DNA from: a virus
Virus record (IMG/VR): IMGVR_UViG_3300007541_006356
Span: 1-61,619 of that record
Strand: one strand, 5' to 3'
Length of the DNA stretch: 61,619 nt
Shown one piece after another: positions 20,153 to 23,553 of the stretch (position 1 is the stretch's first letter; the number at the start of each line of letters is the position of its first letter). Under the pieces are notes generated by a model, which was given only the letters and a program-made list of their open reading frames with translations, was not told where the DNA came from and searched no databases. A program made the translations under genes and the position numbers.

Positions 20153-21988
20153 ATGGGAGCATTATTAGAATCAGGTATGGTAGGTAACATCGGTCTTAAG
20201 CACCTTAAAGTTATCAAAGAAGATACCATCAATAAATGGAACAAGCTTGGGTTCCTAGAAGGCCTAAAAGGTCACAGCAGAGAGAACATCGCTCAGTTGT
20301 ATGAAAACCAAGCAACACACCTAATAAACGAAGCTACGTCATCTGACGCTTCTGGTTCATTCGAAACAGTTGTATTCCCTATCATTCGTAGAGTTTTCTC
20401 TAAATTGTTAGCGAACGACATCGTTTCTGTACAAGCTATGAACTTACCTATCGGTAAATTGTTCTACTTCGTACCTAAAGTGTCATCAAGACAATCTAAC
20501 GGTCAACATTGGGCACCGTTTGGAGCACCTGGTGCTGACGCGTCACAAATTCCAAACTCACCGTTCACTGCAACCACAATTAACTTGTACGATAACTTCT
20601 ATGTAAGTAATGAACCACTTAGTGCGACTGACGGTCTTTATGACATCTCAAAAGGTCGTTATTCAGCTGCTACAGCGACTAACCTACCTGTACAGGTATG
20701 GAACGCAAATGCTAGAACATTAAGTGACGCTACAGCATCTGACACCGCGTTAACCAACTTAACCTCATCAACTAACTGTAACAATACTGTTATCGTTCAA
20801 TTGTCAGGTTTCTCAAGTGCGGGTAACGGTAAATTGATTGGTCCTGTGGGTAACGCTATGGATACTGAAGAGTTCTTAGCTTCATTGACACTAACCACAA
20901 CAGCTGCTACAACTTGTAAATCAGGTTCTACGTTCTATTCAGCAAATGACAACGTATTGTTTAGAGTTGTAACTCAAAAGTACGGTGAAGGAATAGTTCA
21001 AGGTCTAAACAATAGAACACAAACTAGTTTCCCACCAAACCCAGGTGGTTCATATGACAACATTTGTGACGCTAACGGTTACATCTACTTGGAAATCGAT
21101 TTGACTTGTCCAGCTTGTATTAAGTGTGATTCGGTTGATGGTTATGTTTGTTCATATTACAGTTCAGCAGCATTCGAAAATAACACATTAACACCGTTCA
21201 CTGCAACTTGGAGAATCTACGAAGACTTAGAATTTGAAGAAGAAATGGGTGAGGTATCATTCGACCTTGAGTCAGTTACCGTATCTGTTACTGAAAGAAA
21301 ACTAAGAGCACAGTGGTCACCAGAATTAGCACAAGACGTTTCAGCGTTCCATAACATTGACGCAGAAGCTGAATTAACAGCTTTGTTGTCTGAGGAAGTT
21401 GCTGCTGAAATTGACCGTGAAATTCTAAGAGACCTTAGAAAAGGTGCAGCATGGAACCTAAGATGGGATTACAATGGTTGGAAGAGATTCCAGTCTGGTC
21501 AAGCTCCTTACACACAGAAGGATTGGAACCAAACTCTAATCACTGCGATTAACCAAATCTCAGCTCAAATCCACAAATCAACCTTAAGAGGTGGTGCTAA
21601 CTGGATTGTTGTTTCTTCAGAAGTATCAGCAATCTTTGACGACTTGGAATACTTCCACGTATCAAACGCAGCACCTGAACAAGATCAATACAACATGGGT
21701 ATTGAGAAGATAGGTACATTGTCTGGTAGATACACAATTTACCGTGACCCTTACTTCCCACCAAACCAAATCTTGATTGGTCATAAAGGTACATCACTGT
21801 TGGATACTGGTTACGTTTACGCACCATACGTACCGTTACAGTTAACACCAACAATGTACAACCCATTCAACTTTACACCTATCAAAGGTATCATGACTAG
21901 ATACGCTAAGAAGATGGTGAATAACAGGTTCTATGGTAGAATCACTGTTGATGGTGTACGTACATTTGACATCAAAGAGTTAAGATAA
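20153..21988 (+). CDS. Major capsid protein (T4 gp23-like)
   Basis: Forms the icosahedral shell. At 611 residues it is longer than T4 gp23 (521). The N-terminal region includes ENIAQLYENQATHLINE, and LINE|A at 57-61 fits the prohead-protease consensus, giving a mature N-terminus at Ala61 (T4 cuts after Glu65). FPIIRRVFSKLLANDIVSVQ and the C-terminal QLTPTMYNPFNFTPIKGI are typical of the family. An insertion at about 185-355 contains several Cys (SCPACIKC-like cluster near 320) and may form a surface domain. The gene uses C-ending codons far more than its neighbours, as expected for very high expression. A terminator follows. Confidence 0.95.
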   Translation: MGALLESGMVGNIGLKHLKVIKEDTINKWNKLGFLEGLKGHSRENIAQLYENQATHLINEATSSDASGSFETVVFPIIRRVFSKLLANDIVSVQAMNLPIGKLFYFVPKVSSRQSNGQHWAPFGAPGADASQIPNSPFTATTINLYDNFYVSNEPLSATDGLYDISKGRYSAATATNLPVQVWNANARTLSDATASDTALTNLTSSTNCNNTVIVQLSGFSSAGNGKLIGPVGNAMDTEEFLASLTLTTTAATTCKSGSTFYSANDNVLFRVVTQKYGEGIVQGLNNRTQTSFPPNPGGSYDNICDANGYIYLEIDLTCPACIKCDSVDGYVCSYYSSAAFENNTLTPFTATWRIYEDLEFEEEMGEVSFDLESVTVSVTERKLRAQWSPELAQDVSAFHNIDAEAELTALLSEEVAAEIDREILRDLRKGAAWNLRWDYNGWKRFQSGQAPYTQKDWNQTLITAINQISAQIHKSTLRGGANWIVVSSEVSAIFDDLEYFHVSNAAPEQDQYNMGIEKIGTLSGRYTIYRDPYFPPNQILIGHKGTSLLDTGYVYAPYVPLQLTPTMYNPFNFTPIKGIMTRYAKKMVNNRFYGRITVDGVRTFDIKELR

Positions 21989-22013: not shown

Positions 22014-22041
22014 AAAAGGTCAGAGAAATCTGACCTTTTTT
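22014..22041 (+). terminator. Rho-independent terminator after the capsid gene
   Basis: AAAAGGTCAGA, a short GAAA-type loop and TCTGACCTTTTTT form a strong hairpin 25 bp after the capsid stop. Confidence 0.92.
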
Positions 22042-22081
22042 ATTTGAATATTATTAGTTGTTTTTAATTTTATGTCTCATA

Positions 22082-22088
22082 TATTTAT
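22082..22088 (+). promoter_or_regulatory. TATTTAT late-type promoter of the HNH/GNAT gene
   Basis: TATTTAT lies 18 bases upstream of the ATG at 22107. Confidence 0.58.
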
Positions 22089-22106
22089 ATGTAAACATTC
22101 GAAACT

Positions 22107-23516
22107 ATGGGTAGGAAAATTGTCATACCAGAAAATGAAGTTAAAGAAATTATTAAATTATACGTTGAGGATAAGATCGGTACACCAACATTAAGTGAAA
22201 AATTTGGTTACGGTAAATCAATAATAAATAGGACATTAAGAGAAAATGGTGTAATTGTTGACACACCCGGTAGAAGATTTTTAGGGGGTAAAAAAGTATC
22301 TGACGCTAAATATTACGTAAATAATAAAATCGAAATATTGGAAAGACATAAAAATTGGTCAACCGAAAATAAAGAAAAACTAAAAAACTACCATAAAGAG
22401 TGGAGAAATAACAATAGGGAAAAGATTAATGAGTATAAACGTAATTACGAAAAAAATAAAAAAAGTACAGATCCCACCTATAAATTAAGTTGTAACATTC
22501 GTACCGCGATATATACCGCATTAAAGGAAGGTAATGTAAATAAAAATTCTAAAACTTTTAACATGCTACCCTACGACTTATCTGAATTGATGGGTCACTT
22601 AGAAACACAGTTCACAAGTGGTATGAGTTGGTCTAATTATGGTGAATGGCACGTTGACCACATAATCCCCATTTCTTCATTCAACTTTAATGATTACGAA
22701 GAATTTGAATCCTGTTGGTCACTATCAAATTTACAACCATTGTGGGGTAGTGAAAACATAAGTAAAAATAATAAAATAATCGCTCACCAATATAAGATAA
22801 GGAAACAAAAACAGGAAGAAGAAAAGAATACGTTACCATTTGATCCAAATGAAGTGGTACTTAGAAACAGTACATTAAGAGAAATTAGTCGAAATGAATG
22901 TGAAAAAATTATTAATGAATATGAATGGTTAGGTTATTTACCTAAATATACGAAATACCATTTTGGGTTATATTTCAACGTTGACGGTAAAGAGTATTTA
23001 GGGGGTGTCGTAGCTTTCCAATCCGAATATGGTGATAATATAGGGGTGTGGGATAAATATGGTTTTACACACAAAATAATACAATTAAGTCGTGGTGTAT
23101 GTTTGTGGTGGACACCAAAAAATACAGCGTCATACATGATATCTAAAACACTTAAATGGTTAACCACTAATACAGAATATGAAGTAGTGTCCGCGACAGT
23201 AGATTCTAAAGCTGGTGAGATAGGGACAATTTATCAATCTTTGGGTTGGCATTATGTTGGTTGTATGGGCGGTAACATATTAAAAAATGGGAAAGAAAGA
23301 ATTAGATACGGTTATAAGATAAATGGGAAAATATACAATCAACGACACATTAGATCTATGATTGGTACAGCTAAGAAAGAAACTGTGTTGGAACATTTTC
23401 CTGATGTGGAAATTGTAAATTTAGGTAGGAAAAAAAGGTACTTTAAATTTATAAAAAATCATGACATACATTTAGAAAAAATAAAATCATTATTAAAACC
23501 TTATGAAAAAAGGTAA
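22107..23516 (+). CDS. HTH-HNH endonuclease fused to a Mom-like GNAT domain
   Basis: 469 residues with three parts. Residues 8-50 form a helix-turn-helix (GTPTLSEKFGYGKSIINRTL). Residues about 125-225 hold an HNH-type nuclease with WHVDHIIPIS (His182, Asp184, His185) and SLSNLQPLW...N..K, as in phage homing endonucleases. Residues about 255-400 resemble the acetyltransferase-like fold of phage Mu Mom, a DNA adenine modifier: GLY...YLGGVVAF, LSRGVCLWWTP, then VSATVDSKAGEIGTIYQSLGWHYVG. Lying alone behind the capsid gene is a typical free-standing homing endonuclease position. The GNAT part might modify DNA or protect the cut site; that is inference. It has its own promoter motif. Confidence 0.75.
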   Translation: MGRKIVIPENEVKEIIKLYVEDKIGTPTLSEKFGYGKSIINRTLRENGVIVDTPGRRFLGGKKVSDAKYYVNNKIEILERHKNWSTENKEKLKNYHKEWRNNNREKINEYKRNYEKNKKSTDPTYKLSCNIRTAIYTALKEGNVNKNSKTFNMLPYDLSELMGHLETQFTSGMSWSNYGEWHVDHIIPISSFNFNDYEEFESCWSLSNLQPLWGSENISKNNKIIAHQYKIRKQKQEEEKNTLPFDPNEVVLRNSTLREISRNECEKIINEYEWLGYLPKYTKYHFGLYFNVDGKEYLGGVVAFQSEYGDNIGVWDKYGFTHKIIQLSRGVCLWWTPKNTASYMISKTLKWLTTNTEYEVVSATVDSKAGEIGTIYQSLGWHYVGCMGGNILKNGKERIRYGYKINGKIYNQRHIRSMIGTAKKETVLEHFPDVEIVNLGRKKRYFKFIKNHDIHLEKIKSLLKPYEKR

Positions 23517-23533
23517 ATTCACCTTAATGTAGA

Positions 23534-23540
23534 TATTTAT
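23534..23540 (+). promoter_or_regulatory. TATTTAT late-type promoter
   Basis: TATTTAT lies 13 bases upstream of the ATG at 23554. Confidence 0.58.
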
Positions 23541-23553
23541 ATAAAAAAATATT

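Follow-up and report, generated by a model that had tools for sequence, protein, structure and literature searches.

The question raised by this locus is why a phage should encode, immediately 3' of its capsid gene, one protein chain that resembles a DNA-cutting enzyme in its first half and a DNA-modifying enzyme in its second. The locus lies in IMG/VR record IMGVR_UViG_3300007541_006356, of which positions 1 to 61,619 were analysed, a viral stretch of 61,619 nt hereafter called the window. The phage is T4-like, and the gene in question is a single unbroken open reading frame, for which full-length relatives with 51-70% identity were found at seven loci (L001, L085, L087, L089, L093, L095, and L096). 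The contigs carrying these loci are uncultured, partial genomes, and the analysis is sequence- and model-based throughout. The elements of the locus are:

20153..21988, + strand: major capsid protein gene (T4 gp23-like), the left neighbour, recognised by similarity to the immuto capsid
22014..22041, + strand: hairpin-T terminator that follows the capsid gene and marks where the insertion begins on the left, identified from the sequence
22080-22089, + strand: late-promoter-like motif TATATTTATA, the sole exact copy in the window, 18-27 bp upstream of the ATG
22107..23516, + strand: HTH-HNH-Mom fusion gene, 469 aa
23554..23829, + strand: probable membrane-protein gene, 91 aa, the right neighbour, with its own late-promoter motif at 23532-23541

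The capsid protein is ~41% identical to that of Flavobacterium phage immuto, which is annotated gp23. Because of this resemblance, and because one locus with a related fusion (Mom joined to GIY-YIG; see below) is found in a Bacteroidales MAG contig, the host of the window phage is probably a member of the Bacteroidota. The spacing between the capsid stop and the fusion gene is 118 bp, and hairpins comparable to the terminator are found 3' of the capsid gene in the other loci inspected. The position behind the capsid gene and the promoter motif of its own, both pointed out in a preliminary description of this DNA, are thus as described.

The sequence TATTTAT is present within 30 bp upstream of 14 of the 61 window genes, compared with 0.5 expected at random positions, and is at -25 in the fusion gene. 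The motif TATTTAT / TATATTTATA is the reverse complement of the T4 late motif TATAAATA and is likely the late promoter of this phage group. From the motif at -25, the fusion gene is probably expressed late, when a modification made before packaging makes sense. Many window genes, some of them structural, have TATTTAT / TATATTTATA at about 20-25 bp before them (e.g., at 22080-22089 and 23532-23541).

The first half of the protein contains two features:

22131..22244, + strand: N-terminal three-helix HTH-like part, residues 9-46, from the AlphaFold secondary structure
22578..22772, + strand: HNH nuclease core, residues 158-222, from PHROG 1035, the invariant residues, and AlphaFold

The HTH-like part is a three-helix unit in the AlphaFold model with weak Foldseek matches to HTH domains, and it is followed by long helices in series (residues 61-141). 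PHROG 1035 'endonuclease VII' matches residues 80-241 (E 1.4e-17). The HNH motif, H182-x-D184-H185 ... N208 ... N217, is intact, and W181, H182, D184, H185, P188, N208, L209, W213, N217, and K220 are invariant across 28 aligned sequences. An N-terminal HTH and an HNH centre, as proposed in the preliminary description, are therefore both recovered. In the AlphaFold model, strands 181-185 and 209-213 and helix 214-234 follow the beta-beta-alpha order; Foldseek gave no significant nuclease match for them. The HNH domain was not matched in a Pfam search of the window protein, and PDB sequence searches, whether made with the entire protein or with a profile of its HNH part, gave nothing useful. Since no solved HNH nuclease was returned by Foldseek with the HNH half, this half is assigned by motif and family, and its identification as an HTH-HNH nuclease of the phage 'endonuclease VII/HNH' family is supported on these grounds. 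Identity with the DHHRN or T4 endonuclease VII type (F-CphI) was considered and rejected: that type has CX2-4C and CX2C zinc pairs and a conserved Arg and lacks the central Asn (PMC6083498), whereas in the window protein the Cys pairs are absent and the central Asn (N208) is present.

The second half is occupied by one domain:

22857..23507, + strand: Mom domain, residues 251-467, from PF25680, alignments, and the Foldseek match to 8bv8

Mom is the enzyme by which phage Mu disguises its DNA from bacterial defences. The Mom pattern had been placed earlier at residues 255-400; the domain is a true Mom domain by family model and fold, but those limits are too short, as it runs to about residue 467. 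Two checks proposed at the time, a comparison with HMM families and a structure prediction, both point to Mom. PF25680 matches residues 256-467 over profile positions 3-201 of 202 with 66.1 bits (E 4.4e-18; curated cut-off 27.1 bits), PHROG 1384 'Mom-like DNA modification protein' matches with E 4e-18, and the top PDB match of the AlphaFold model (pLDDT 85.7) in Foldseek is 8bv8, phage Mu Mom (E 2.7e-10, TM 0.72 by target length). No NCBIfam model scored above its cut-off for the window protein, and PADLOC gave no match to it. A chance Mom match is rejected in view of the E value of 4e-18, the fold match, and the recurrence of the domain.

The identity between the window Mom domain and Mu Mom is ~20%. 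In an alignment of 19 rows, in which fusions are compared with nine stand-alone phage Mom proteins, that of Mu among them, R329, G373, Y376, and Y445 are invariant in all rows. D366 is conserved except for Asn in L096/L097 and Glu in CRP-902. The position of Mu H58 (241-aa numbering), an iron ligand in Mu Mom, is occupied by E273 in the window protein, and by Glu in all the fusions aligned and in stand-alone 'EYEWLG' relatives. The counterpart of Mu S124 is S342, likewise invariant (19/19); the S124A form of Mu Mom is called inactive in the title of PDB 8bv8. The C-terminal half is therefore predicted to be a complete, apparently intact Mom-family GNAT domain in which the key catalytic serine is kept.

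The low identity to Mu Mom and the Glu at the HY motif (E273 for H58), which sets the EYEWLG subfamily apart, leave some room, given the versatility of GNAT chemistry, for a working Mom-type acyltransferase that acts on another substrate (another base, RNA, or protein) and brings a benefit other than anti-restriction. This is considered very unlikely, as the closest family models and the top fold match are Mom, and the R, S, D, and Y positions agree with Mu.

One HNH-Mom gene, L096:3248-4630, has Asn (ATVNPSAG) where Mom otherwise has a conserved Asp, and a deletion shortens the loop that precedes its catalytic arginine; its Mom is perhaps inactive.

The two halves meet in a short region:

22779..22811, + strand: fusion junction region, residues ~225-235, reading '..KNNKIIAHQYKIRKQK', located by comparison with the ends of HNH-only and stand-alone Mom proteins

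HNH-only proteins end in '..KSNKI(FND)' or '..RKSNKIFND'. Stand-alone Mom proteins begin with M-(K)AHQ(K/R)..R.., similar to what comes after the HNH half of the window protein. The fusion therefore links two proteins in their entirety, one HNH and one Mom-like.

When viral contigs were scanned with the Mom domain, 34 loci were recovered: 13 HNH-Mom, 20 in which Mom is followed by GIY-YIG, and one other (L118). Besides the window protein, seven distinct HNH-Mom and 17 Mom-GIY-YIG proteins were found, and the GIY-YIG partners are confirmed by Pfam and the NCBIfam group I intron endonuclease model. With eight distinct HNH-Mom proteins across independent contigs, an assembly chimera is rejected. 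At L118:3611-4618, which is not 3' of a capsid gene, the HNH is degenerate, with the DH pair lost, and the Mom domain is intact. Among 50,697 records of isolated phages, neither fusion was matched over most of its length. A narrower Mom alignment scanned against genome contigs gave two loci, and one Mom-GIY locus is in a Bacteroidales MAG contig.

A wider scan added about 35 distinct stand-alone Mom-like proteins of ~250-270 aa. The fusions group together as a single clade in the tree, next to the stand-alone Mom-like genes; within this clade, HNH-Mom is one group (100/99) and Mom-GIY another (87/96). By this topology, HNH-Mom arose once. An HNH remnant 5' of the Mom-GIY genes, hinted at by one match, was looked for and not found. 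The large stand-alone 'EYEWLG' family (L184-L227, L149) occurs in viral contigs and one Rhodobacteraceae MAG, and no nuclease of the kinds described here was found near these genes.

Although dS is often near saturation, dN/dS rises in nearly all pairs from Mom (mostly 0.06-0.25) through HNH to HTH (range 0.05-0.86). By this measure, Mom is the most constrained of the three parts and is under purifying selection.

These results bear on the main structural rival, in which the Mom/GNAT domain has no catalytic role and serves the homing nuclease for DNA binding or targeting. A remote GNAT homologue (hhalign probability 93%, E 3.6e-7) does form the C-terminal part of phage REase-type homing endonucleases, a large family present in 410 phage records that includes the neighbouring gene in L001 and L085. 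However, none of the aligned fusions has lost the catalytic serine or any other invariant Mom residue, and the domain corresponds over its full length to a Mom-like gene that also stands alone. It is under tighter constraint than the nuclease half, and in L118 it has survived the decay of the HNH. The possibility that the domain is a known DNA-binding part of homing enzymes, raised in the preliminary description, is thus answered in two parts: the domain reproduces in full a Mom-like protein that is also encoded by a separate gene, but many REase-type homing endonucleases contain a GNAT domain that is remotely related to it, so that a targeting role, though quite unlikely, keeps some room.

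The surroundings of the fusions show where the gene sits and how it varies. All Mom-fusion loci but L118 (33 of 34) follow the capsid gene; most lie 30-150 bp after its stop, and the remainder come after another nuclease gene at that place. Among the 80 closest capsid relatives, 11 loci have at the same site an HTH-HNH protein of ~226-237 aa without Mom, and no match to Mom was found in these HNH-only records, which are partial genomes of up to 98 kb. The site between the capsid and membrane-protein genes is empty in L006, L020, and L039, where the capsid gene is followed by the terminator, the late-promoter motif, and then the homologue of the 91-aa gene. The exact edges of the insertion are approximate, because the capsids of these empty-site phages are only ~70-76% identical. 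REase-GNAT homing-type genes occur at the site in tandem with HNH-Mom (L001, L085) or Mom-GIY (L100, L102, L105), and in L109:2445-5644 two different Mom-GIY-YIG genes are in tandem 3' of one capsid gene.

Capsid and Mom distances are correlated overall (r 0.82), so that inheritance is in large part vertical or clade-bound, and the claim of turnover rests on the outlying capsid/Mom pairs. Mom fusions with 60-64% identity occur behind capsids with 94-96% identity; for example, the capsid C-termini of L110 and L111 are 95% identical and their Mom domains 62% identical. Because near-identical capsids can thus be followed by Mom fusions only ~60% identical, the site, as judged from these pairs, turns over like a homing-endonuclease hotspot. 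In T4, the homing gene segD adjoins capsid gene 23 (PMC2988022). The empty sites, the nuclease-only versions, and the turnover at one site agree with the earlier suggestion of a mobile, homing-type gene.

The same distribution weighs on the idea of a one-chain restriction-modification-like element, in which Mom would mark the phage's own DNA and the fused HNH would cut only unmodified rival or host DNA. A single protein does hold the cutting and modifying functions, nucleases of three types (HNH, GIY-YIG, and REase) show the association, and the same reasoning has been published for jumbo-phage REase-Mom fusions (PMC7824862). A restriction nuclease that lacks its modifier would be expected to kill its own carrier, yet intact HNH-only versions persist at the site in partial-genome records without a Mom match. 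Mom is also found without a nearby nuclease, and confinement to one locus fits homing rather than general defence. An obligate arrangement of this kind is therefore considered unlikely. The restriction-modification-like pair of the preliminary description is accordingly not upheld as an obligate cut-and-shield device, since intact HNH proteins lacking Mom are present among the recovered contigs, and Mom is found either with an HNH that is dead (L118) or with no HNH at all.

The explanation regarded as probable, if by no wide measure, is a homing nuclease that carries a DNA-hypermodifying, anti-restriction Mom enzyme as fused cargo. A free-standing homing-type HNH gene would have entered the interval that separates the capsid terminator from the next late promoter, and would have captured an entire Mom-like DNA-modification gene in frame. 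The fusion would be made late, together with the structural genes. When a relative without the element infects the same cell, the HTH-HNH half of the fusion would cut that relative's DNA at a site near the 3' end of the capsid gene, and repair of the cut allele would copy the element across. The Mom half may hypermodify adenines of the phage DNA before packaging and so protect it from host restriction. The modification would then be a cargo that pays for the mobile gene, and not an obligatory antidote to the nuclease. This reading is preferred because intact HNH exists without Mom (in partial genomes) and Mom exists without the nuclease (L118 and the stand-alone genes). Counting against it are E273 at the Mu H58 position, the Asn for the conserved Asp in L096/L097, and the return of no solved HNH nuclease by Foldseek. 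Its sequence basis covers the domains, the intact key residues, the site occupancy, the turnover, and the purifying selection; that the protein cuts DNA, where it homes, what chemical modification it makes, and what advantage this brings belong to the interpretation.

A variant of low probability is that the selfish gene cuts the rival capsid locus and marks the progeny with a Mom-type acyl modification that blocks its own cut. If true, this would be the first homing element with a built-in chemical self-recognition that is not based on SAM methylation.

The cargo interpretation may be set against known systems. The likeness to phage Mu Mom (PF25680; 8bv8) extends over the whole domain, the fold, and the R/S/D/Y positions, including the S124 equivalent. 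In contrast, Mu Mom is stand-alone and under Com control, whereas the window domain is fused behind HTH-HNH and has Glu at H58. Mom fused to REase nucleases has been predicted in jumbo phages and read as restriction-modification-like (PMC7824862). Those proteins likewise combine a Mom-type GNAT with a nuclease in one phage protein, but the nuclease of the window is HNH (GIY-YIG in relatives) and not of the REase fold, and here there is one mobile capsid-adjacent locus of which nuclease-only and Mom-only versions exist. The REase-type homing endonucleases (PHROG 3339/559; 'Hef-like', F-LimIII, 'nuclease/acetyltransferase') also join a homing nuclease to a GNAT-like C-terminus and occur in tandem with the fusions at the same capsid-adjacent site; they differ in nuclease fold, and their GNAT is remotely related, without a Pfam Mom match. 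Free-standing phage HNH and GIY-YIG homing endonucleases such as T4 mob and seg are similar in their nuclease motifs, essential-gene neighbours, and patchy occurrence, but a modification domain is not described for them in the available parts of the sources. Single-chain type IIG restriction-modification enzymes have cutting and modifying domains in one chain, with a SAM methyltransferase as the modifier; the fusion has GNAT/Mom instead, and its nuclease persists without the modifier. Homing genes with adjacent cargo genes ('HEG-islands') have been proposed (PMC10448857).

In the open papers searched, a set outside which most subscription journals fall, no report was found that joins Mom to a homing nuclease of the HNH or GIY-YIG type. 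A Mom-nuclease fusion has already been predicted as REase-Mom, and the HNH and GIY-YIG partners are new within the open literature searched. The locus links homing endonucleases, usually deemed purely selfish, with phage DNA hypermodification against host restriction. Since a Mom-like enzyme has joined both HNH and GIY-YIG at one locus, and a remote GNAT rides on REase-type enzymes, the comparison suggests that mobile nucleases carry, or use, DNA-modifying domains as a general trade. The nuclease-only, Mom-only, dead nuclease with Mom, and empty-site states provide natural controls for a simple test of whether homing genes spread anti-restriction enzymes.

Three further arrangements were seen in the scans. 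L208:2621-4009 encodes a Mom-like protein of 462 aa with a C-terminal extension (..VVAHPPCRLWGNLSH..). In a Bacteroidales MAG contig, L148:2409-3914 is a REase-homing-type GNAT joined to GIY-YIG, directly 5' of a Mom-GIY gene. In phage f2b1, an EYEWLG-motif Mom-like gene (L120:1354-2217) is located between the two ribonucleotide reductase subunit genes.
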